From positions 496,001 to 560,000 of the forward strand of contig JAIQGG010000001.1 of NCBI GenBank assembly GCA_020072785.1: a DNA stretch of 64,000 bases, given 5' to 3'. The position numbers and the translations under genes were made by a program. The notes beneath the pieces were generated by a model. It did no database searches, had not been told where the DNA came from, and saw only the letters and a program-made list of their open reading frames with translations. Shown here in pieces: positions 47,566 to 60,042 of this stretch. Position 1 is the stretch's first letter, and the number at the start of each line of letters is the position of its first letter. Source of the stretch: Terriglobia bacterium. Lineage in GTDB: Bacteria; Acidobacteriota; Terriglobia; Acidiferrales; UBA7541.

Positions 47566-48795
47566 CTAATTGCCCGCCTGCAGGCGCTTGATCAGCTTTT
47601 CGGCCTCCGCCGCGTCAAACCACCAGGGGTTGTAGGCGGGCGGGTTGTTGAAGCCGTTGGAAATGAGGCTGGCCAGCTTGGGAATCTGCGAAGCCGCACC
47701 CATCAACTGCAGCACCTGGGGCGGCGGAGGGGTTAGCAGCGAGTTCGTCCACTTGGCCACCCACTGCGCATAGCTGTAGAAGGTCTCGAAGGTCTGCTGC
47801 ATCCAGCCGGCATCGAACGGTTTGCCGCCGCGTTCCAGAATGCAGTCCATATAGACTTTTGCGCACTTGCACGCCGTGTTCGCGCCCTGCCCGGTGATCG
47901 GATCGTTGAGCACCACGACGTCGCCCATGCCCAGGATGGTTTTCCCGGAGGGCAGTTTGCAGACCGGCTTGCGGATGGTGGGCGCGAATCTGCCCGCGAC
48001 AATGCCGTTATCGTCGGTAAGTTCGATCTCCTGGCAGCGCTCCGCTTCCCAAGGCAGAAACTTAGCCAGGATCTCCTTGCTGCGTTGGAGATGCTGCTGC
48101 GGCGTCTTTACATCCTGCCAGCAATCCATGGGGCCACCGGGGACTCCCTCGAAGACCATGATCTCGCACGGCCCGTTGACGGTCAGCGCCGGGAAGACGA
48201 AATATTCGCCGACGCCGGGGATGAGGCTGAAGGCCACGGCGGTGAAAGGCTTGCGGGGCACCATCTTCTTGACATAGGTCAGCGCCAGGGCACGCATGGG
48301 CTGATCGAAGGTGGAGCGTGCGGCGTCGCGTGTGAAGAGTTGGTTGATCTCCCCTTTGCCGGCGGCCACAATCACGAGCTCGTGGCTCTTGGCATACTCC
48401 TCGAGGTCCTGAGCGCTGGCTTCCTTGTAGATGACCTGACCGCCGCGCTTGGCAAACTCTTCGAGCCAGCCGGCAAACTTGACGCGTTGGTCGATGGACT
48501 GGCCGAAATGGTCCAGCTTCGCCTCCCAGAACAAGGCGCGGCCGCCGTCCGGCCCGGGAATGGAAAAGCCGATCCCCTCGGTCTTCGGGCACTCCTTTTC
48601 CCAAAAGTTGATGCCCAGATCCCGTTCGATCTGCAGAGAACTGTCAAACATGAACTGGCTGGAGCTGACGCGGCCGGCGCGGAGCTGCTGGGAAGTGCGG
48701 CTGGAGACGACGGTGATGGCATAACCCTTCTGCTGGAGACCCAGAGCCAACTGCAAGCCCGACTGTCCCGCGCCGACGATGGCGATCTTCCTCAT
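47566..48795 (-). CDS. StyA-like flavin-dependent (group E) monooxygenase
   Basis: 409 residues from ATG 48795, preceded by AAGGAG. N-terminal FAD-binding GAGQSGLQLALGLQ, a middle part with GFSIPGPDGGRALFWEA and SFDQPMRALALTYV, the FAD-binding GDVVVLNDPITGQGANTA, and the C-terminal YNPWWFD. These and the length match styrene monooxygenase StyA and indole monooxygenases, two-component enzymes using reduced FAD. The flavin reductase encoded divergently at 49771 is the natural partner. The substrate is probably an aromatic vinyl or indole-type compound, which is inferred. Confidence 0.88.
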   Translation of the reverse strand: MRKIAIVGAGQSGLQLALGLQQKGYAITVVSSRTSQQLRAGRVSSSQFMFDSSLQIERDLGINFWEKECPKTEGIGFSIPGPDGGRALFWEAKLDHFGQSIDQRVKFAGWLEEFAKRGGQVIYKEASAQDLEEYAKSHELVIVAAGKGEINQLFTRDAARSTFDQPMRALALTYVKKMVPRKPFTAVAFSLIPGVGEYFVFPALTVNGPCEIMVFEGVPGGPMDCWQDVKTPQQHLQRSKEILAKFLPWEAERCQEIELTDDNGIVAGRFAPTIRKPVCKLPSGKTILGMGDVVVLNDPITGQGANTACKCAKVYMDCILERGGKPFDAGWMQQTFETFYSYAQWVAKWTNSLLTPPPPQVLQLMGAASQIPKLASLISNGFNNPPAYNPWWFDAAEAEKLIKRLQAGN

Positions 48796-48974
48796 GGAAT
48801 GCTCCTTTTTTCTTAGCGGCCGCTTTCCGCCGATTCCGCGCGCTTCCCCTGCATTTCCTTGTTGCTGCCCAGCGGGCGCACCGCCCGTTCTTTGCAGCGG
48901 GGCCATATGATAGTATCTGCGCCGGAAAAAACAAACTCTGGAATAGGCCGGAGAATTCACAGGGGGAGGCCGTC
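48796..48974. promoter_or_regulatory. Divergent intergenic region styA-like / SDR
   Basis: 179 bp between divergent genes, the likely site of regulated promoters. It contains an imperfect palindrome TCTGG-AATAGG-CCGGA near 48936-48951 and an A-rich stretch just upstream (GGAAAAAACAAACTC). No consensus promoter was confirmed by eye. Confidence 0.35.
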
Positions 48975-49763
48975 ATGGAAGGTCTGAAAGGGAAGGTCGC
49001 CATCGTCACGGGCGGCGGAACGATGATTGGCGCCCACGTGGTCCGGGCCTTTCATCGGGAAGGAACGAAAGTGGTTGTGGCGGATATTGACGCGGCGGGC
49101 GGCCAGGCCATTGCCGGCGAACTCTCTGAAGGTGTGCGCTTCATCCGGACGGATCTGGGCGACGACAAGCAGATCGCCGCTTGTGTCGAGCAGACCGTCG
49201 CGGCGTTCGGCGGTATCGATTTCCTGGTCAACGTGGCCTGCGTCTACGTGGATGGCGGCCTGAGCGCCTCGCGGCAGGATTGGCTGGACAGCTACAACAT
49301 CAACGTCGTCGGCGGGGTGATGATGCTGAAGGCCGTGCGCCCGCACATGGTCCAGCGGGGCGGCGGCGCGGTGGTGAACTTCGGCAGCATCAGCGCGAAG
49401 GTGGCGCAGCATGGCCGCTGGCTCTACCCGGTCAGCAAAGCGGCGACGCTGCAGTTGACGCGCAACGAGGCCATGGATCTGGCCGGGGACAAGATCCGCG
49501 TCAACTCCGTCTCTCCTGGCTGGACCTGGTCGAAGGTCATTGCCGAGCTGAGCAAGAACAATCGCGCGAAGGCCGACAGCGTGGGCGCTCCCTTTCATCT
49601 GCTGGGGCGCATCGGTAACCCGGAAGAGGTAGCGCAGGCCGTTGTTTTCCTCTGTTCCAGCCATGCCTCGTTCATCACCGGGACGGATCTTGCCGTGGAC
49701 GGCGGCTACACCGCCATGGGCCCGGAACGCGCCGAAGAGGCGATTCCCAAGCTGGCGGAATAG
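48975..49763 (+). CDS. SDR-family oxidoreductase in the island
   Basis: 262 residues. TGGGTMIGAHVVRAF binds NAD(P); catalytic Ser in NFGSISAK and Tyr-x-x-x-Lys in LYPVSKAA. GLTAC-type end replaced by VDGGYTAMGPE. In the setting of a StyA-like monooxygenase and flavin reductase, it could oxidise a dihydrodiol or alcohol intermediate. It precedes the flavin reductase by 7 bp. Confidence 0.9.
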   Translation: MEGLKGKVAIVTGGGTMIGAHVVRAFHREGTKVVVADIDAAGGQAIAGELSEGVRFIRTDLGDDKQIAACVEQTVAAFGGIDFLVNVACVYVDGGLSASRQDWLDSYNINVVGGVMMLKAVRPHMVQRGGGAVVNFGSISAKVAQHGRWLYPVSKAATLQLTRNEAMDLAGDKIRVNSVSPGWTWSKVIAELSKNNRAKADSVGAPFHLLGRIGNPEEVAQAVVFLCSSHASFITGTDLAVDGGYTAMGPERAEEAIPKLAE

Positions 49764-49770
49764 AGAAGAT

Positions 49771-50283
49771 ATGAAGAGCACTTCAGCCGAGGACTTTGAC
49801 CCGAAGGATTACCGCCGCACGCTCGGGCAGTTCGCCACGGGCGTCACCGTGGTCACCACCCGGGGCCAGGACGGCCGCTTCATCGGCCTGACCGTCAATT
49901 CCTTTACTTCCGTTTCGCTCCAGCCGCCGCTGGTCCTCTGGTGTCTCGTCCGGCAATCGCCGAGCCTGGCAGCCTTTCAAGGGGCCAGCCACTTCGCGAT
50001 CAATATTCTGGCGGCCGGGCAGCACGGCTTGTCCCGGCAGTTTGCTTCGCAGGTTCCCGACCGGTTTGCAGGGGTTGAGCTGGAGGAGGGGAAGGCCGGT
50101 GTGCCGCGCTTGAAGGGCGTCGCGGCCCAGTTGGTTTGCCGGAACGCGGGGCAATTCGACGGCGGCGATCACATCATTTTTCTGGGGCAGGTGGAGGAAT
50201 ACCTCCGGTCCGAGGAAAAACCTCTGCTGTTCCACTCCGGGCGCTATCGCAGCGTGACGCCGCATCCCGATTTCCCGGAATGA
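49771..50283 (+). CDS. Flavin reductase family protein (StyB/HpaC-like)
   Basis: 170 residues. Split-barrel flavin-binding fold with YRRTLGQFATGVTVVTT, GLTVNSFTSVSLQPPLVLWC and HFAINILAAGQ. It supplies reduced flavin for the monooxygenase encoded divergently. It follows the SDR with a 7-bp gap, in one operon. Confidence 0.9.
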   Translation: MKSTSAEDFDPKDYRRTLGQFATGVTVVTTRGQDGRFIGLTVNSFTSVSLQPPLVLWCLVRQSPSLAAFQGASHFAINILAAGQHGLSRQFASQVPDRFAGVELEEGKAGVPRLKGVAAQLVCRNAGQFDGGDHIIFLGQVEEYLRSEEKPLLFHSGRYRSVTPHPDFPE

Positions 50284-50395: not shown

Positions 50396-51496
50396 TCAGT
50401 CGGCCGGAACCTCTTCGGTTTTCGGCTGGGCTTTTGTCTTGGTTGGGCGCCGGTAGATTCCCCTCTCCACCATCTCTGCCAGCACGCGGTGCCGTATGGC
50501 GTCGTGATCCGCATGCCCGCCGGGATGCTTCTTCAGGCCGAGGTTTTTCGGGTACAAGGGTTTTTCGTAGATGCAGCGGAACTGTTCGGTGCGCAGATCG
50601 CGGAGCCAGTTCCCCCACAGCGAGCGCGTGCGGTATTGCCGCAGCGCCTCGATATCGATGATCGCTCCGGCGTAGGAAGGCCCCGCGCCGTACTCGTGCT
50701 GCGAAAGCACCCGGCCCTGATAGTCCACGATCATGGATTTGCCGCCGAAAGTATCCAGTGCGTCTTTCGAATCCTGCATGAGGTAGTAGTTGGCGGGGTT
50801 CGGCGCCACCACGTAGCAGGTATTGTCCAGGGCGCGGGCGCGGTTCTGCACCTCCCAGAGGCCGTTGGCGACATAGGGTTCGGGATACGCGGGCCGGTAA
50901 AGGACTTCGGCGCCGTTCATGGCCATGCCGCGGGCCGTTTCCGGGAAGGATCCGTCCATGCAGATCACGCAGCCGATCCGCCCGATCTCCGTATCGGCCA
51001 CGGGAAAGAAGGAATCGAGGCCGTCGCCGTAGAGTTCGACCCACTTGTCCCACACGTCGTGGGGCACGGTCGAGTGCTCGCGGGCGAAGACCTGGAGCTT
51101 GTGGTATTTATAAATCACCTCGCCGGTCGGCGCGATGATGAAAGCGCCGTTGAAGAACTTCCTGGGAAACTCGGGATGCTTGATCTTGGCCTGGGCGATG
51201 ATGAAAGCGTTGTGCTGCTTGGCTTTGCGCCCCAGCATCTCCGTCTCTGGGCCGGGGATGTCCAGGGCCATCTCCTCCACGTATTTTTCGTGATCCCAGT
51301 CGAAGACCTCGTCGGTGAAACCCTGCAGGCAGCCTTCCGGAATACAGATCAGGCGCACGGGCAGGTCAATGGAACTGAGCCAGATGGAAGCGTCGATCAG
51401 GTCCGAAATATGCCGGATGTTGACCTCGACTTCCGAGCGCTTGGTGCAGCCACGCATGGTGGGCTGGAGCGCAAGAGCCATATATTGCTCGATCAT
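50396..51496 (-). CDS. Nitrilase-superfamily amidohydrolase (active triad)
   Basis: 366 residues from ATG 51496, with a strong AAGGAGG site. Carbon-nitrogen hydrolase fold with Glu54 (CIPEGCLQG), Lys133 (YHKLQ) and Cys179 (VICMDGSFPE), the full triad. Hydrolyses a nitrile, amide or carbamoyl bond; substrate not assigned. It is a close paralogue of 56616-57683 in the same island, where the Cys is lost. The C-terminal end is extended and positively charged (RRPTKTKAQPKTEEVPAD). Confidence 0.88.
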   Translation of the reverse strand: MIEQYMALALQPTMRGCTKRSEVEVNIRHISDLIDASIWLSSIDLPVRLICIPEGCLQGFTDEVFDWDHEKYVEEMALDIPGPETEMLGRKAKQHNAFIIAQAKIKHPEFPRKFFNGAFIIAPTGEVIYKYHKLQVFAREHSTVPHDVWDKWVELYGDGLDSFFPVADTEIGRIGCVICMDGSFPETARGMAMNGAEVLYRPAYPEPYVANGLWEVQNRARALDNTCYVVAPNPANYYLMQDSKDALDTFGGKSMIVDYQGRVLSQHEYGAGPSYAGAIIDIEALRQYRTRSLWGNWLRDLRTEQFRCIYEKPLYPKNLGLKKHPGGHADHDAIRHRVLAEMVERGIYRRPTKTKAQPKTEEVPAD

Positions 51497-51626
51497 GACA
51501 ATCCTCCTTGGCGGGTCTACAGCATGTGCTGAAACCGGGACGTCGGTGAGTGCGCCTTCCGAGGCGCGCCGGGATGCGCCGGATGAAGAGTATTCAACAC
51601 CCGAACGCATGCCCCGTCAAGAAGTT

Positions 51627-51641
51627 GACCGCTTGGCGGTC
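51627..51641. repeat. REP-like palindrome GACCGC-TTG-GCGGTC
   Basis: Single palindrome in the gap between the nitrilase and aldehyde dehydrogenase genes. It shows that the repeat family also occurs inside the putative island. Confidence 0.8.
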
Positions 51642-51723
51642 ACAGTAATAATGACGGGCCGCCTGAGGCACACTGCGCGGGCCCTGGGACGCTCCGTTCC
51701 GGAGGTTGTCCACGCCAGAACCT

Positions 51724-53205
51724 TTACGAGCCGGAAGCTTCGGCCACTTCAAATGGGTAGTGCCGGTGCGTGCGCTGCACGGAGATCCACTTCAGAGTGG
51801 TGAACTCCTCCAGCGCCCAGCGGCCATTGAGCCGTCCGATGCCCGAAGCTTTTTCGCCTCCAAAGGCAATGGTGGGTTCGTCGCTGATGGTGCCGTCGTT
51901 GACGTGGATCATGCCGGAGTCGATCTCTTTGGCCAGCTCCGCGCCGTGCTCCAGGTTGCGCGTATGAATGGCCCCGCTCAACCCGTACGGGCTGTTGTTG
52001 GCCACGGCGATGGCTTCTTCTTCGGTATCGAAGGGCATGACGCACACGGCCGGGCCGAATAGCTCATTCTGCGCGACGTACATCTCGGGCTTCACATCGG
52101 CAAAGATCGTCGGGGACACCAGGTTGCCTTCCGCTTTGCCGCGCAGTACCGGCTTGGCGCCTTCGTCCACGCCCTTCTGGATCTGCCGGGCGAGGGTATC
52201 GGCCTGGGCCTTGTTCATCAGCGGGCCAATATCGGTCTGCGGATCTCGCGGATCGCCCACTTTGAGCCCGGAAACCCGCTGCACATATTTCTCCAGGAAT
52301 TGCTTGTACAGGCTGCGATGCACCAGGATGCGGTTGGCGGACATGCAGATCTGCCCCTGGTGCGTGAAGCGGCTAAAGACCGCGGCATTGAGGGCATAGT
52401 CCAGATCGGCATCCGCAAGAATGATGAAGGCGCTGTTGCCGCCCAGCTCCAGAATCGCTTTCTTCAGGCAGCGGCCGGCGGATTCTCCGATGCGCCGGCC
52501 GACGCCTTCCGAGCCGGTGAAGGAGATGACGCGGGGAATGGGGTGCTCGACGAAGTTGTTTCCGATTTCCGCGATGTCTGCGATGACCACGTTCAACAGG
52601 CCCTTGGGGATGCCCGCCGCTTCGAAGATCCGGGCAACGAGCGTGCCGCCGGTGATGGCCGTATCATCGTGCGGCTTGAGAACCACGCCATTGCCCGCGC
52701 CCAGCGCCGGGGCCACCGAACGCATGCTCAGGAAGAAGGGGAAGTTGAACGGGCTGATAACCCCCACGACCCCGACCGGGATGCGGTAGAGCCTGTTTTC
52801 CTTGCCTTCGACTGTGGAGGGCAGGATCTCGCCGGTCATGCGCAGGGGGAAGGTGGCGGATTCCTTGATGATGTTTTTCACCAGGCCGATTTCAAAAAAG
52901 GCCTTGAGGCGCGTGCCGCCGAGTTCCTCGATAATCATGTCGGTGATGTCGCCTTCGTTCTGCTCCACGAAGGTGATCGCCTTCTCGAGGATGGCGCGTT
53001 TCTCGAAGGGATTGACCGCCGCCCAGACCTTCTGTGCCGCCGCTGCCGCGCGATAGGCCGCATCGAGATCCGCCAGGCTCGCCAGCTTGAACTCGGTAAT
53101 GGGCTTCCCGTTGTAGGGATTCCTGTCCGTCAGCGTCTTCTGGCTCGCGCCGTCGCGCCATACTCCGCCGATGTACTGCTTATTGAGTGCCGCAAACTGG
53201 TTCAT
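51724..53205 (-). CDS. Aldehyde dehydrogenase (NAD(P)-dependent)
   Basis: 493 residues from ATG 53205 with GGAGG 5 bp upstream. GVISPFNFPFFLSMRSVAPA, catalytic Glu in ELGGNSAF and Cys in THQGQICMSANR, with NELFGPAVCVMPF. Resembles benzaldehyde / phenylacetaldehyde / vanillin-type dehydrogenases, though the exact substrate is open. In context it could oxidise an aldehyde formed after monooxygenase action. Confidence 0.92.
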   Translation of the reverse strand: MNQFAALNKQYIGGVWRDGASQKTLTDRNPYNGKPITEFKLASLADLDAAYRAAAAAQKVWAAVNPFEKRAILEKAITFVEQNEGDITDMIIEELGGTRLKAFFEIGLVKNIIKESATFPLRMTGEILPSTVEGKENRLYRIPVGVVGVISPFNFPFFLSMRSVAPALGAGNGVVLKPHDDTAITGGTLVARIFEAAGIPKGLLNVVIADIAEIGNNFVEHPIPRVISFTGSEGVGRRIGESAGRCLKKAILELGGNSAFIILADADLDYALNAAVFSRFTHQGQICMSANRILVHRSLYKQFLEKYVQRVSGLKVGDPRDPQTDIGPLMNKAQADTLARQIQKGVDEGAKPVLRGKAEGNLVSPTIFADVKPEMYVAQNELFGPAVCVMPFDTEEEAIAVANNSPYGLSGAIHTRNLEHGAELAKEIDSGMIHVNDGTISDEPTIAFGGEKASGIGRLNGRWALEEFTTLKWISVQRTHRHYPFEVAEASGS

Positions 53206-53314
53206 GGCCGTCCTCCGGACTTTCGAAAGGTATCGCGAAACTATACAGAATCCGCTTTGAACTTCCAGTAGTTTTCCGCCCCCCGCCGCGCAGGTCCGGG
53301 AGGAAAGACTATTG

Positions 53315-53343
53315 TTGACGCAACACGTGCCGAGTGCTAGTCT
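53315..53343 (+). promoter_or_regulatory. Possible promoter of the second Oar-like receptor
   Basis: TTGACG (53315-53320), 17-bp spacer, TAGTCT (53338-53343). The -35 is good and the -10 matches at 3 of 6. It is in the divergent gap between aldehyde dehydrogenase and receptor. Confidence 0.4.
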
Positions 53344-53364
53344 CCGTCAAATTTCAACTTCCGG

Positions 53365-56300
53365 ATGGGGGGGAACGTGCGACGCATATCCTTGGGATTG
53401 CTTGGGGTTACGATTCTCTTGCTGTTGGTTTCCGCCAATAGCGTGTCTGCGCAGCAGTTCGCGACTTTGAATGTGACGGTGAACGACCAGTCGGGCGGGG
53501 CCGTCCCCAACGCCAACTTGACACTGAAGAACACCGCCACGGGTGTCGAACGCACCGCGGTCACGGGGGAGGGCGGACTTGCCGTCATCCCCAGCGTCCC
53601 GGCAGGGAGCTATGCCCTGACGGCGACGCATGCCGGGTTTGCGGCGCACACGGTCACAGTTCAGCTTGCCGTCGGTCAGATCGCCTCGGTGACCATCTCC
53701 CTGGGAGTTTCCGCGAAGGCGGAGACCGTCGAGGTGACGGAGACCGCGCAGGCCGTGGACCCCGAGAAGGCGGAAGTCAGCCAGGTGATTGACACGCCGA
53801 AGATCAAGGACCTGCCGATTTCCGGGCGCGACTTCATCGACTTCGTTCTGCTCACGCCTTCGGTGAGTATCGGGCGCAGCACGGCCGTGGGGGCGCAATC
53901 GCCGTTTACGGAGACGGTGCTGAAGCTGAGTTTCGCGGGAGTGCGTGAGAGCCACACGTCCTTTTATTCCTTGGACGGGATCGACTACAACACCAGCATT
54001 TCCGGCGTGCAGCGCATCAGCCCCTCGCAGGACTGGGTGCAGGAATTCCGCGTCGTGGACAGCCCTTTCACCGGGGACAACGGCCGCAACCTGGGTTCCG
54101 TGGTCAATACGGTCACCAAGTCGGGCACCAATGACGTGCACGGCACGCTCTACGAGTTTTTCCGCAACAACAAGATGGATGCCAAGAACCTGCTCTCCGC
54201 CCCGGGTTTCGACACGCTGCGCTTCAACCAGTTCGGCGGCACGGTGGGCGGGCCGATTCGGAAGGACAAGCTGTTCCTCTTCGGCGGCTACGAAGGGCAG
54301 CGCCGGGCGGATTCACCCATCTATTCCTCCTTGATCCTGGGCTGCACCGACAACCCAGGATGCTTCGGCCCCGGCAGTCTGAGCATCAACCAGGTGAAAC
54401 AACTTCTCGGATTGCAGCCCGAGGTGCTGAACTCCTTTCTGAGCATCGATGACTACGACAAGATGATCTTGAAAAGCAACGCCATCGTGAGCAGCAAGAC
54501 GTTTCTCAACCTGACCTACCTGTTCAACGATTCGCGCAAGCAGAATGTGCGCGGCGCGGCGCCGGGCGAAGGCATGCCTTCTTCCTATCGGGACAACCCC
54601 GTGCGCGACCAGACCGCCTACGGCAGCCTGGTCCACCTGTTTTCTCAGGCGCTCACCTCCGAGACGCTTTTCCAGTACGGACGCCGGAAGTTCGACCTGA
54701 TCCCCAAGGGGGCCGGTCTGGAACCCGCCATTGCCGTTCCGGACATGCTGTCCTCGGGCGGCTTCGTCGGCAGCGTCCGGGCGTATACGGAACAGCGCAT
54801 TCAGGCGGCCGAGAACCTGACCTATGTGCGCGGGAACCATACCTTCAAGTTTGGCGGCGACATCGAGCCGGTCTGGATCGATACCCAGGTCACCTTGTTC
54901 AGCCCGGGGGTGGGCATCTTTTCTCCAGGTTGCTTCTTTGGTGGCCCCTCCGGGTGCGCCGGCGCTCCGCAAGGCGTATTTTCCCCGGGCACGGCGCTGG
55001 CTTTCCTCTTCCTCGAGCCTCGCGAACTCTTCGGCCAGCAGATCCCGCAGCGGACACTGCCTTTCTCCACGGGCCTGTACGCCGGCCCTTCGCAGCAGGC
55101 CTTCGATGACGCGACCTCTCTAAACTTCGAACACACCCTGTGGTCGATGTATGCCCAGGACCTTTGGAAGGCGCGGCCCAACCTCACCGTTACCCTCGGC
55201 CTGCATTACGACGTGGATACCTTTCCGTCCGCGGCGGACGTGAAAATCCAGGGCAAGTTCCATCCCACCAACTATGGCAATATCCAGCCGCGCGCGAGCC
55301 TGGCGTATTCCTTCCACAACGGTAAGGGCGTGGTGCGTGCCGGCGCGGGCCTGTTCAACTCGCCGTTTGTCTTCAGTGACGTTTTGGTGAGCTGGATCGG
55401 CGCCTCGGAATTCACCTACATGAACCAGCCGCTGTTGTCGGAGTTCAGTGATCCCACCAACCAGTTGATTGGCTTTGGGGCCTCCGGTGCAGTGGGTGCT
55501 CCCGGGCCGGTGTTTGGCGGCATCGGGTTCAGCAATTTTACCCACTTCGGCATTTATCCGGATCCGACAGAGAGTCCGGTGTTGCAGTTCCCCTTGGGGT
55601 ACGCCAAACGCGAATTCAAGAATCCCATCGCCACGCAGGCCAGCCTGGAAATTGAACACCAGGTTGGCAAGGACTTCGTCGTCTCGTTGGGATACCAGTG
55701 GATGCACGCCACGCGCCTGCCGGTCTACTACAGCATCAACGGGACGCCGGTAACCAATGGTGCGGGGGTGGAGCAGTGCAATCCGGCTATCACCAGCGGC
55801 TGCTCGCCGTACTTTACGCCCACCGATCCCAACTTCGGGTTTGCGCTGTACGTCAAACCCGGAGGATTCTCGATTTACAATGCGGGCACCGTCAGCGTGC
55901 GCAAATCCTTCTCGCACCACTATGACTTCCTGGCCAATTACACCTACTCGAAGTCCATTGATATCTCGACAACCGTCAACCTGCCCAACGTGCCGGTAAA
56001 TTTCGTCCATCCGAGCCTGGACCGGGCCGTCGGGGACAACAACATCCCGCACCGGCTCACCCTGGCGCTGCTTGGGGAGACCCCGGACACCTGGAATGTC
56101 GTGCTGCGCCATTTCAAGGCCTCGGTGCTCACCAACCTGCAGAGCGCGCGGCGCTATAGCATCGTTGCCGGCTTCGATACCAACGGCGACCTTTTCCCCT
56201 TCCCCGACCGCGTGGGGGTTATCGGCCGGAATACGTATAAAGGGGACCCCAGCCACACGGTGGATCTGCGCATCCAGCGCGTGATTCCCGTCAACGAACG

Positions 56301-56526
56301 CGTCAATGTGGAGCTCAGCGCGGAGATCTTCAACCTGCTCAACCGTGCCAACGTGCTGGAAATCGACCACGCCTATGGGCTGCCGGATTTCGTGACCGCG
56401 GTTCCCCAGCAGTACAAGGACGGCATTGCTCCCCCGCTGTCTTCGGGTGGCAATCCCTCGTTCGGGTCGCCGAAATTTGCCGGCCCGGCGCGGCAAGTCC
56501 AATTGTCGCTGCGCTTGAATTTCTAG
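53365..56526 (+). CDS. Oar-like TonB-dependent receptor (island copy 2)
   Basis: 1,053 residues from ATG 53365; GTG 53377 directly after a G-rich stretch is an alternative start. Signal peptide to SAQQ, regulatory-like beta-sandwich (ATLNVTVNDQSGGAVPNANL), plug (DLPISGRDFIDFVLLTPSVS, SFAGVRESHTSFYSLDGIDY) and barrel ending in FAGPARQVQLSLRLNF. Clear paralogue of 37898-40969. Plausibly takes up the island's substrate or a related compound. It precedes the pseudo-nitrilase and isochorismatase genes on the same strand. Confidence 0.9.
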   Translation: MGGNVRRISLGLLGVTILLLLVSANSVSAQQFATLNVTVNDQSGGAVPNANLTLKNTATGVERTAVTGEGGLAVIPSVPAGSYALTATHAGFAAHTVTVQLAVGQIASVTISLGVSAKAETVEVTETAQAVDPEKAEVSQVIDTPKIKDLPISGRDFIDFVLLTPSVSIGRSTAVGAQSPFTETVLKLSFAGVRESHTSFYSLDGIDYNTSISGVQRISPSQDWVQEFRVVDSPFTGDNGRNLGSVVNTVTKSGTNDVHGTLYEFFRNNKMDAKNLLSAPGFDTLRFNQFGGTVGGPIRKDKLFLFGGYEGQRRADSPIYSSLILGCTDNPGCFGPGSLSINQVKQLLGLQPEVLNSFLSIDDYDKMILKSNAIVSSKTFLNLTYLFNDSRKQNVRGAAPGEGMPSSYRDNPVRDQTAYGSLVHLFSQALTSETLFQYGRRKFDLIPKGAGLEPAIAVPDMLSSGGFVGSVRAYTEQRIQAAENLTYVRGNHTFKFGGDIEPVWIDTQVTLFSPGVGIFSPGCFFGGPSGCAGAPQGVFSPGTALAFLFLEPRELFGQQIPQRTLPFSTGLYAGPSQQAFDDATSLNFEHTLWSMYAQDLWKARPNLTVTLGLHYDVDTFPSAADVKIQGKFHPTNYGNIQPRASLAYSFHNGKGVVRAGAGLFNSPFVFSDVLVSWIGASEFTYMNQPLLSEFSDPTNQLIGFGASGAVGAPGPVFGGIGFSNFTHFGIYPDPTESPVLQFPLGYAKREFKNPIATQASLEIEHQVGKDFVVSLGYQWMHATRLPVYYSINGTPVTNGAGVEQCNPAITSGCSPYFTPTDPNFGFALYVKPGGFSIYNAGTVSVRKSFSHHYDFLANYTYSKSIDISTTVNLPNVPVNFVHPSLDRAVGDNNIPHRLTLALLGETPDTWNVVLRHFKASVLTNLQSARRYSIVAGFDTNGDLFPFPDRVGVIGRNTYKGDPSHTVDLRIQRVIPVNERVNVELSAEIFNLLNRANVLEIDHAYGLPDFVTAVPQQYKDGIAPPLSSGGNPSFGSPKFAGPARQVQLSLRLNF

Positions 56527-56615
56527 CGGCTTCCGGAACACTGCAGCAGAACCCGCGCAAGGCCGGCGCATCCGTTTCCGCTGCGCCGGCCGCGCGCGAA
56601 TCAGCAGGAAAATCC

Positions 56616-57683
56616 ATGATCAAGCCCTATACCGCCGTCGGTCTTGTGCCCACCATCCGCGGGATCCGCTCCCGCAAGGACATCAAGATCAATCTGGACC
56701 ATCTGAAGCATCTGGTGAAGGCCGCCAACTGGCTCTCCGCCATGGATCTGCCGGTGCGGCTGATGGCCATCCCCGAGGGCGCTTTGCAAGCCTTCAATGA
56801 CGAAGTGCTCGACATGGACCATGTGCAGTACGCGCGGAAATGCGCCATCGATATTCCGGGCGAGGAGACGGAAGAAATCGGCAAGATCGCTCGCGAATGG
56901 GACTGTTTCATCATGGCCCAGGCCAAGGCGCGCCACCCGGACTGGAAAGACCGTTTCTTCAATGTGGGCTTCATTCTCAATCCCAAGGGAGAAGTGATTC
57001 TGAAGCATTACAAGGTGTCCCCGCTGTATCCGGTGGAGCATTCCGTCTGCCCGCATGACATTTACGATTGGTGGATCGAGAAGTACGGACGCAACCTGGA
57101 CGCCTTCTGGCCGGTCGTGGACACCGAGATTGGCCGGATGGGCATCATGATGGCCAACGAAGGATCGTATCCCGAAAATGCGCGGGCCCTGGCGATGAAT
57201 GGCGCGGAAATCGTTTACCGGGCCTCCTACCCGCATCCCGGCAGCGGCAACGACTTCTTCGAGATCCAGAGCGCGGCCCGCGCGCTGGACAATAATATGT
57301 ACATTATGGCGCCCAATCTGGGGACCTATTTCCTTTTCCCCGAGGACACCACGCCCATTGATACTTTTGGCGGACGCTCTTATATCTTCAATTACAAGGG
57401 CCAGAAGGTCGGCAAGCTCGAGTACAGCGGCGGATCGAGTTACGTCGCCGGCGTGATCGATGTGGAAGCCCTGCGCGACCACCGCGCCCGCGCGCAATGG
57501 GACAACTGGATGAAGGACATCCGCTCCGAGCTCTATCAGATCGTCTATGAAAAGCCCATCTATCCCAAGAACCTCTATTTGAACCGCGTCCCGATGAAAC
57601 ACGCTGAATACCGGGAGAAAGTCATCAAACGCCAGATCGCTCTGATGCACGAACGCGGCATCTGGAAGAAGCCGGAACGCTGA
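56616..57683 (+). CDS. Nitrilase-fold protein lacking the catalytic cysteine
   Basis: 355 residues. Close paralogue of 50396-51496 over its full length (same PVRL..IPEG, YPKNL segments). Glu54 and Lys133 remain, but the position matching catalytic Cys179 is Ala180 (codon GCC at 57153-57155, in GIMMANEGSYPE). So it should not work as a normal nitrilase; it may be a regulatory or scaffolding partner of the active paralogue, or bind a ligand. There is no frameshift or stop and the frame is well kept, which suggests it is still selected. 30 bp before the isochorismatase gene. Confidence 0.85.
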   Translation: MIKPYTAVGLVPTIRGIRSRKDIKINLDHLKHLVKAANWLSAMDLPVRLMAIPEGALQAFNDEVLDMDHVQYARKCAIDIPGEETEEIGKIAREWDCFIMAQAKARHPDWKDRFFNVGFILNPKGEVILKHYKVSPLYPVEHSVCPHDIYDWWIEKYGRNLDAFWPVVDTEIGRMGIMMANEGSYPENARALAMNGAEIVYRASYPHPGSGNDFFEIQSAARALDNNMYIMAPNLGTYFLFPEDTTPIDTFGGRSYIFNYKGQKVGKLEYSGGSSYVAGVIDVEALRDHRARAQWDNWMKDIRSELYQIVYEKPIYPKNLYLNRVPMKHAEYREKVIKRQIALMHERGIWKKPER

Positions 57684-57713: not shown

Positions 57714-58400
57714 TTGCCGATGCCCCACCAAGACCGTGCATCCCGGAAAAAATTTTTCACGGTGGACCCCCGGCGTTGCGCCCTACTCGTCATCGACATG
57801 CAGAACGCCTTTGTGGCCGAGGGCGAGCCGTTCGAAACGCCGCCGGCGCGCGCGATGGTTCCGCGCCTCGAGCGTCTGATCCGGTTTTGCCGCGAACGCG
57901 AGATGCCCATCGTCTGGACCCAGTCGGATCACCGGCCGCCCTATGGCGGCCTGATGCTGCAGAAGTTTCCCGTCATCGGCGAGCAGCGCGTCCTGTGGCA
58001 GGGCGAGCCGAGCTTTGAGATGTATCCCCACATGCTCCAGCCGCAGGAAGCGGTCTCCGAGTACCGGCTGGTCAAGCATAAGTTCGACGCTTTTTTCGAA
58101 ACCGGCCTGGACGCCATTCTGCGCTATCACCACACGGATACCGTAATCATCACCGGAACCGCCACCAACGTCTGCTGCGAATCCACGGCCCGTGCTGCGT
58201 TCATGCGTGACTACTATGTGGCATTTCCCAGCGATGCCAATGCGTCATTCGATCCGGCCATGCACGAGGCCACACTGAAGAACATCGACTTATTCTTTGG
58301 CAGAGTGATGACCACTGAGGAGCTTCTGGCGGAAATGGAAGCGGCGATTGCGGAGACCTCCACGGCGGCGCAGCGCCGCACTCGGAAGCCGCGGCCCTGA
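57714..58400 (+). CDS. Isochorismatase-family cysteine hydrolase (amidase type)
   Basis: 228 residues. Triad Asp28 (LLVIDMQNAF), Lys121 (LVKHKFDAF) and Cys154 (TATNVCCESTAR) fit amidohydrolase members such as RutB, N-carbamoylsarcosine amidohydrolase or maleamate amidase, rather than true isochorismatase. Likely cleaves an amide or carbamoyl group late in the pathway. Last gene before the right att copy, and coupled to the pseudo-nitrilase by a short gap. Confidence 0.9.
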   Translation: MPMPHQDRASRKKFFTVDPRRCALLVIDMQNAFVAEGEPFETPPARAMVPRLERLIRFCREREMPIVWTQSDHRPPYGGLMLQKFPVIGEQRVLWQGEPSFEMYPHMLQPQEAVSEYRLVKHKFDAFFETGLDAILRYHHTDTVIITGTATNVCCESTARAAFMRDYYVAFPSDANASFDPAMHEATLKNIDLFFGRVMTTEELLAEMEAAIAETSTAAQRRTRKPRP

Positions 58401-58641: not shown

Positions 58642-60042
58642 ATGTCTACGTCTACGACCACCAAAGCGGCGCGGCCCGTCTGGAAACCTACGACCCGGGT
58701 GGGTGTAGGCGGACAGCCGTTCAAGTATCCGCTGGAGCGCGCGTTTGTGGAGCCGGACTGGCGGCGTTTTCCGGGCTGGAAGGACGTGACGCGGGAGCAG
58801 TGGGAGACGGCCTTGTGGCAACGGCAGCACACGGTCAAGAACCTCAAAGAACTGAAGGAAGTGATGGGCGCCCTGCTCCCCGAGGACCTCGCGGCCAATG
58901 TCGAGCGGGACATGCGCGAGCGCGCCACTATGTCCATGCTCATTCCGCCGCAGATGATCAACACCATGAATGAGCGGGACCTGTGGAACGATCCGGTGCG
59001 CCACTACATGCTCCCGGCGTTCGACGACCGCCATCCGGAGTGGCCCAGCCATCCGCACGCCAGCCGCGACAGCCTGCATGAATCCGACATGTGGGCGGTG
59101 GAGGGGCTGACGCACCGCTACCCGACCAAGGTGCTGGCGGAGATGGTTTCCACCTGCCCGCAGTACTGCGGGCACTGCACGCGCATGGACCTGGTGGGCA
59201 ACGATGTGCCGCAGGTGACCAAGCTGCGCTTCCAGATTCCGCAGAAAGAGCGCTTCGAACAGATGCTCGATTATCTGCGGCGCACGCCACAGGTTCGCGA
59301 CGTGGTGGTTTCCGGCGGGGACATCGGCAACCTGCCCATCCAGCAGCTCGAGCCGTTCGTCAGCGCCTTGCTGGACATCGAAAACATCCGCGACATCCGC
59401 TTCGCCTCCAAGGGGCTGATCGGCATCCCGCAGCATTTCCTGCAGGACGAGGTGCTGCACGGCTACGAGCGTCTGGCCAGGAAGGCGCGGGAGCGCGGCG
59501 TCAGCCTGGCGTTTCACACCCACGCCAACCATGCCGCGCAGGTCACGCCCCTGGTGGCGCGGGCTTCGCGCAAGCTGCTGGAGCTGGGCTTCCGCGACGT
59601 GCGCAACCAGGGCGTGCTGCTGCGCGGCGTCAACGCTTCCTCCCGGGAACTGCTCGAGTTGTGCTTCACGCTTCTCGATCATGCCTCGATCATTCCCTAC
59701 TACTTCTACATGTGTGACATGATCCCCAACGCCGAGCACTGGCGCGTGGCGGTCTACGAAGCGCAGCAGTTGCAGCACGACATCATGGGCTATCTGCCGG
59801 GCTTCGCCACCCCGCGCATCGTCTGCGACGTGCCCTTTGTGGGCAAGCGCTGGGTGCACCAGGTGCGCCAGTACGACCGCGACAAGGGCGTTACCTACTG
59901 GACCAAGAACTACAAGACCGGCATCGAGGCCCAGGATCCCGAAGCGCTGACCCGCCAGTACGAATACTACGATCCCATCTACACACTGCCCGAGGCCGGA
60001 CAGGAATGGTGGCGCCTGCAGCACGAGCATACGGCCAGCTGA
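58642..60042 (+). CDS. KamA-family radical SAM protein (lysine 2,3-aminomutase-like)
   Basis: 466 residues. Radical SAM cluster cysteines 172, 176 and 179 (CPQYCGHC), SAM-binding VVVSGGDIGNLP, and VRNQGVLLRGVN, a KamA-type motif. A Lys in PFVGKRWV near the end is a candidate for the PLP-binding residue of lysine 2,3-aminomutase. It might be a lysine or glutamate aminomutase or a related PLP-radical enzyme. It is the first gene beyond the island. No partner (for example kamD/E) is in the window. Confidence 0.82.
   Translation: MSTSTTTKAARPVWKPTTRVGVGGQPFKYPLERAFVEPDWRRFPGWKDVTREQWETALWQRQHTVKNLKELKEVMGALLPEDLAANVERDMRERATMSMLIPPQMINTMNERDLWNDPVRHYMLPAFDDRHPEWPSHPHASRDSLHESDMWAVEGLTHRYPTKVLAEMVSTCPQYCGHCTRMDLVGNDVPQVTKLRFQIPQKERFEQMLDYLRRTPQVRDVVVSGGDIGNLPIQQLEPFVSALLDIENIRDIRFASKGLIGIPQHFLQDEVLHGYERLARKARERGVSLAFHTHANHAAQVTPLVARASRKLLELGFRDVRNQGVLLRGVNASSRELLELCFTLLDHASIIPYYFYMCDMIPNAEHWRVAVYEAQQLQHDIMGYLPGFATPRIVCDVPFVGKRWVHQVRQYDRDKGVTYWTKNYKTGIEAQDPEALTRQYEYYDPIYTLPEAGQEWWRLQHEHTAS

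Follow-up and report, generated by a model that had tools for sequence, protein, structure and literature searches.

A gene pair that differs at the catalytic cysteine

The window considered here, a stretch of 64,000 nucleotides from a Terriglobia bacterium (assembly GCA_020072785.1, contig JAIQGG010000001.1, forward-strand positions 496,001 to 560,000), encodes two related proteins of the amidase/nitrilase superfamily: P0003, which bears the catalytic cysteine, and P0002, which has alanine in its place. The genes and their key codons are listed below in window coordinates, with the basis of each in brackets.

56616..57683, plus strand: P0002, cysteine-less amidase/nitrilase homologue of 355 residues (PF00795 match, AlphaFold2 model)
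56775..56777, plus strand: Glu54 codon of P0002, the triad Glu, invariant (clade alignment)
57012..57014, plus strand: Lys133 codon of P0002, the triad Lys, invariant across the clade (clade alignment)
57036..57038, plus strand: Glu141 codon of P0002, the second active-site Glu, invariant (HMMER and clade alignments)
57048..57050, plus strand: Cys145 codon of P0002, candidate relocated nucleophile (Cys or Ser in the clade rows)
57153..57155, plus strand: Ala180 codon (GCC) of P0002, at the catalytic-cysteine position (alignments and codon read)
50396..51496, minus strand: P0003, cysteine-bearing paralogue of 366 residues with Glu54, Lys133 and Cys179 (open reading frame, Pfam, BLASTP)
50960..50962, minus strand: Cys179 codon of P0003 (P0003 numbering)

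The two proteins align over their full length with 171 of 355 residues identical (48%; BLASTP E 6e-136) and 2 gap columns, and by this alignment they are paralogues. The original prediction, made from the letters of the window, had described them as alike from end to end, with Glu54, Lys133 and Cys179 in the one and Glu54, Lys133 and Ala180 (GCC) in the other, and with the frame of P0002 intact; each of these points is borne out, and the frame of P0003 is intact as well. Strand was absent from that description: P0003 runs on the minus strand, from 51496 down to 50396, and P0002 on the plus strand 5.1 kb away, an aldehyde dehydrogenase and a TonB-type receptor lying in between. The host genome (3.73 Mb, 98.9% complete) encodes 8 CN_hydrolase proteins, 3 of them in the P0002/P0003 subfamily, the third member being cysteine-bearing (G000:C2:546771-547802).

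Cys179 of P0003, within ICMDG, pairs in the sequence alignment with Ala180 of P0002, within MANEG. The HMMER alignment of P0002 to the solved structure of Helicobacter pylori formamidase matches its Ala180 to the catalytic Cys of that enzyme and its Glu141 to the second active-site Glu, which are numbered Cys166 and Glu141 in AmiF. P0002 keeps Glu54, Lys133 and Glu141, and of the Glu-Lys-Cys triad it lacks the cysteine, as does its whole clade. Its CN_hydrolase domain is clearly recognisable (PF00795, 85.6 bits against a cut-off of 23.2), whereas the NCBIfam equivalog cut-offs for AmiF (49.9 against 406 bits) and AmiE (46.2 against 427 bits) are far from reached.

An AlphaFold2 model of P0002 from a 42-row alignment has a predicted local distance difference test score (pLDDT) of 91.7, the 131-140 block being weaker (pLDDT 77). 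The model has an amidase-type fold (Z 33.4, 300 residues aligned, root mean square deviation 3.6 to 4gyl) and places residue 180 where a strand gives way to a short helix, which is the nucleophile elbow. Its best solved matches are AmiE/AmiF amidases and formamidases, which P0002 resembles in predicted fold (Z 33 to 2plq, 2uxy and 2dyu), length, Glu-Lys-Glu positions and CN_hydrolase domain, and from which it differs in lacking the catalytic Cys, in an identity of 19-23% and in an insertion after Glu141. The match lists also hold Cys-to-Ala mutants with, by title, a bound ligand: nicotinamide (5ny7), butyramide (4izs), glutaramide (6ypa) and an N-carbamyl substrate (8hpc). P0002 shares with such laboratory mutants (4izs, 5ny7, 6ypa, 8hpc and 1uf4) the replacement, its place and the fold; they differ in being engineered, and most hold an uncleaved ligand by title, whereas P0002 is natural.

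A clade with alanine at the catalytic position

A scan of an 84,980-species collection located P0002 orthologues at 54 loci, with identities of 56-91%. By record name, these belong to Acidobacteria, Rokubacteria, Chloroflexi, Acidimicrobiales, Alphaproteobacteria (Rhodoplanes, Xanthobacteraceae and marine bins), one gammaproteobacterium, one Tectomicrobia bin and one Streptomyces. Alanine occupies the catalytic position in 57 of the 58 rows with at least 56% identity, the sole exception being an L090 frame broken by a frameshift; the other frame of that locus has Ala. Since alanine is fixed across the clade, Ala180 of P0002 is not a matter of chance. The original prediction had proposed to ask whether the Ala is kept in orthologues: it is, and a Cys at that position was seen in no readable orthologue.

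The conservation alignment comprises 22 non-redundant clade rows and omits the broken frames of L090, L095 and L099. All 22 rows have Glu54, Lys133 and Glu141, which are among 133 invariant positions out of 355; the clade-specific invariant residues include Trp152, Trp165, Asn188, Asn227 and His289. Codon comparisons give ratios of non-synonymous to synonymous substitution (dN/dS) of 0.01-0.13 for the Ala clade genes, and a comparison of the window with L046 shows more conservation in P0002 (91%) than in the active copy P0003 (84%). Alanine in all readable orthologues, the invariant Glu/Lys/Glu and the low dN/dS together make P0002 a member of an ancient, selected, cysteine-less clade. A catalytic residue has been lost, the loss is kept in orthologues and purifying selection on the gene is strong, so that the description of P0002 as a kept pseudo-enzyme appears well founded; on sequence grounds the group is a pseudo-amidase clade inside a known superfamily.

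The tree omits proteins shorter than 320 residues and rows at least 92% identical to a retained row, which leaves 70 of 109; the alignment columns surrounding the catalytic Cys are excluded too. The Ala clade forms a single group of 25 rows, including the frameshifted L090, with a support of 99 in the Shimodaira-Hasegawa-like approximate likelihood ratio test (SH-aLRT). A second loss affects three paralogues from a single Acidobacteria family, with Cys to Ala in the motif LLAFDG (L034:1636-2712, L035:9443-10510 and L036:5920-6990; support 100), nested among Cys-bearing paralogues in genomes that hold several copies. A third marks a distant Acidobacteria group of nine in which Cys has become Ser and Lys has become Arg (motifs ASEEI and YRRLN; support 100; L007, L010, L012, L013, L018, L019, L021, L025 and L028, with wider stretches L195-L203). 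The cysteine has by this account been lost at least three times within this branch of the family, with the deep joins unsure because the tree was built quickly and some of its branches, several in number, are long. Beside the ASEEI loci, an aldehyde dehydrogenase cluster (Pfam, on L195) recurs at four of the nine and a hydantoinase/oxoprolinase-like cluster (Pfam, on L197) at three.

Neighbouring genes

A single neighbour cluster recurs within the fetched stretch in 28 of 56 sources (the 54 loci, L040 and the window), and it is a TrpB-like, pyridoxal phosphate (PLP)-dependent enzyme. Two members were tested and both lie far above the NF009057 and TIGR01415 cut-offs, the L071 protein scoring 628 against 518.85 for TIGR01415 and 738 against 366 bits for NF009057; the nearest solved chain is 6hul. 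In these respects the linked gene resembles TrpB2 of the TrpB2_o type, a putative subtype assignment.

The association was followed in 47 genomes (45 from the 54 loci, with G000 and G148 added), which were picked for holding the Ala protein and are mostly drafts of unknown completeness; L050, L056, L059, L065, L066, L089, L093, L095 and L096 stand outside this set, L050 sharing an assembly with L048. TIGR01415 is found in 35 of the 47. Across the Rokubacteria, the phylum of G407, a TrpB-like gene accompanies the Ala protein in 40 of 42 genomes and is present in 10 of the 53 that lack the Ala protein (Fisher p 6e-15, with G511, at 46% identity, scored among the latter), and the two genes share a contig within 2-15 kb in 29 of the 42. 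In the family of Rhodoplanes (that of G424) the counts are 13 of 15 with the Ala protein and 29 of 233 lacking it (p 1e-9), with 11 of 13 pairs on one contig at gaps of 83-374 nucleotides, and in marine Alphaproteobacteria the gap narrows to about 20-25 nucleotides. No single TrpB subclade proved specific to the Ala amidase: TrpB-like rows with and without the link intermingle in the tree, so that the tie is one of genomes and neighbourhoods rather than of one TrpB subtype.

The accessible parts of the 2007 trpB2 survey (PMC1854888) report that a second conserved neighbourhood was not found and speak of the selective function of stand-alone TrpB2 as not yet identified; here, by contrast, the Ala amidase is a recurrent neighbour, and the tie is a lead on the role of stand-alone TrpB2.

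The 12 Ala-protein genomes without a TrpB-like gene are 11 Acidobacteria and G411, and most of these Acidobacteria have loci of the type found in the window, whose remaining features are as follows.

47566..48960, minus strand: styrene/indole-monooxygenase-like flavoprotein, SMO (PF17885, 148.6 bits; StyA equivalog 216 bits, below the 550 cut-off)
48975..49763, plus strand: short-chain dehydrogenase of the SMO locus (profile matches, related loci)
49642..50283, plus strand: flavin-reductase-like open reading frame of the SMO locus (name by sequence reading; true start probably downstream, after 49763)
51724..53205, minus strand: aldehyde dehydrogenase between the paralogues (PF00171, 518 bits)
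53365..56526, plus strand: TonB-type outer-membrane receptor directly upstream of P0002 (name by sequence reading; order kept in 12 related loci)
57714..58400, plus strand: isochorismatase-like hydrolase just downstream of P0002 (Pfam)
58642-60042, plus strand: KamA/lysine-2,3-aminomutase-like radical S-adenosylmethionine protein (below every NCBIfam cut-off, no Pfam match)

The Ala gene directly follows the TonB-type receptor, at gaps of about 40-120 nucleotides, in 12 of 55 related loci and in the window, and an SMO-like gene lies near it in 11 of the 55. Two partnerships therefore exist, one with the TrpB-like enzyme in most lineages and the other with the TonB-type receptor, the SMO-like flavoprotein and often P0003 in group-1 Acidobacteria such as the present one. 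Both settings hint at aromatic or indole chemistry, but the neighbours (SMO, TrpB-like and, in marine Alphaproteobacteria, benzoate-CoA-ligase and box-type genes) single out no one compound as the substrate. Two further candidates were set aside as partners: the isochorismatase-like hydrolase, which lies outside the conserved system because it is found in only 2 of 55 related loci, and the KamA-like gene, matched in 0 of 55. A search of the open-access literature yielded nothing relevant on SMO in Acidobacteria.

Individual loci show further variety. In marine Alphaproteobacteria (L071:11268-15969) the neighbours of the Ala amidase/TrpB-like pair are a benzoate-coenzyme A (CoA)-ligase-family gene, a regulator with shikimate-kinase and helix-turn-helix parts and an enoyl-CoA-hydratase-type protein, a neighbourhood that resembles the box benzoate pathway. 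At L048:6384-14024 the genes after the Ala amidase encode a PLP decarboxylase, two aminotransferase-V-like proteins, a permease-like protein, a short-chain dehydrogenase and a Cys-bearing amidase relative. L049 (483-2201), L052, L053 and L055 have an additional SMO-like gene on the opposite strand, adjoined by a flavin-reductase-like match; in L049 a single 573-residue frame spans both parts and so may be a fused monooxygenase-reductase.

Possible roles of P0002

The clade is widespread, under selection and keeps its other catalytic groups, which leaves two options: the fold serves for binding, or it supports a reaction that proceeds with no covalent intermediate. We lean, tentatively, towards the former: P0002 would be a ligand-binding accessory of amidase fold, its pocket intact and acyl-enzyme formation impossible, serving the pathway of its neighbours. 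With the Cys nucleophile lost and Glu54, Lys133 and Glu141 held under selection, no acyl-enzyme could form, and the pocket would therefore bind an amide, an acid or a related ligand without the usual hydrolysis, in the manner of the laboratory Cys-to-Ala mutants. Such mutants with bound substrate have served for modelling a nitrilase pocket (PMC6214922), and since P0002 has its Ala at the same place, nature would have fixed the crystallographers' substrate trap. P0002 might then act as an accessory or regulatory subunit whose partner is most often the TrpB-like enzyme.

A more specific proposal, which is possible though doubtful, has the natural cysteine-less protein as the working partner of a TrpB2-type PLP enzyme that stands alone. 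The intact Glu-Lys-Glu pocket would carry or sense a nitrogenous ligand on behalf of that enzyme, or convert it by cysteine-independent chemistry, and TrpB2 would gain a second conserved neighbourhood and a partner other than TrpA. The open-access literature yielded nothing relevant on a nitrilase with TrpB or TrpB2, and no study of cysteine-less nitrilase homologues as a group or of inactive nitrilases, subscription journals being mostly uncovered. Annotation pipelines probably label such proteins amidases or nitrilases, and the label is probably wrong.

Several observations weigh against the accessory role. The genomes are related, so the co-occurrence counts are not independent events and the p-values ignore relatedness. 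TrpB-like genes occur without a P0002 orthologue in 10 of 50 carriers among Rokubacteria and 29 of 42 in the family of Rhodoplanes, and the reverse holds in the 12 of 47 genomes already mentioned. In L094, a very close relative, a 58-nucleotide gap disrupts the frame of the P0002 orthologue. Finally, the invariant Glu/Lys/Glu would fit a catalyst too.

This last point leads to the explanation that we rate second, and regard as somewhat unlikely, namely that P0002 is still an enzyme, with Glu54, Lys133 and Glu141 as acid/base groups for a lyase or hydratase reaction or for direct attack by water, in the pathway of the TrpB-like or SMO-like neighbour. Invariance of these three residues over several phyla is more than a pure scaffold needs, and the clade-specific invariant Trp, Asn and His residues and the catabolic or uptake setting of the loci speak in the same direction, whereas no substrate suggests itself and no superfamily member is known to work without the cysteine.

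The original prediction had raised the possibility that P0002 assembles with or regulates the adjacent active copy. A precedent comes from the grass nitrilases NIT4A/NIT4B, for which two papers (PMC6214922, PMC5154151) describe paralogue assembly as required for activity; these are branch-1 nitrilases, and they differ from P0002, which in most cases has no active paralogue beside it in the genome. When the 47 genomes were searched using P0003, an orthologue (at least 64% identity) was present in eight (G000, G396, G399, G401, G402, G422, G437 and G439); lowering the threshold to at least 40% for any Cys-bearing relative added only G398 and left 38 of 47 with none, and the other CN_hydrolases of nine of these genomes fell below the search threshold of E 1e-15. 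Marine genomes of 1.1-1.7 Mb have the Ala protein but no such relative, and the other CN_hydrolases that they encode are more distant. In the Rokubacteria the orthologue occurs in 42 of 95 genomes, G511 having only the 46% relative, and a further relative stands beside the orthologue only in G523. P0002 is thus independent of the active paralogue in most genomes, and these whole-genome counts rule out partnership as its general role. What survives is a narrower version: P0003 has an orthologue in 7 of the 11 Acidobacteria genomes that lack a TrpB-like gene, against 1 of 35 TrpB-like carriers, and the two orthologues lie close together in L046 and L094 and on one contig in G402, so that partnership is possible in this subset and in G439. 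As an explanation of P0002, a heteromer is improbable. What the protein seems to represent is a non-hydrolysing branch of the family that is old and under selection, and not an assistant peculiar to the active enzyme nearby.

Less probable still is an ordinary hydrolase whose nucleophile has moved to residue 145, in the loop four residues past Glu141. Residue 145 is the one candidate for the nearby active-site cysteine that, in the original prediction, would count against a pseudo-enzyme. That position is exclusively Cys (16 of 22 clade rows) or Ser (6 of 22), as a relocated nucleophile might be; the six Ser rows would, however, require different chemistry, the geometry of the nucleophile elbow is specific and the model is weaker over the nearby 131-140 block. 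No conserved replacement cysteine emerged elsewhere, Cys76 being present in 20 and Cys97 in 2 of the 22 rows, so that none of the three is invariant.

Decay of a functionless gene is very improbable: frames are broken at 5 of the 54 loci (L088, L090, L094, L095 and L099), mostly in draft metagenome assemblies, against which stand the low dN/dS, an Ala fixed over several phyla and the retention of the gene in the small marine genomes.

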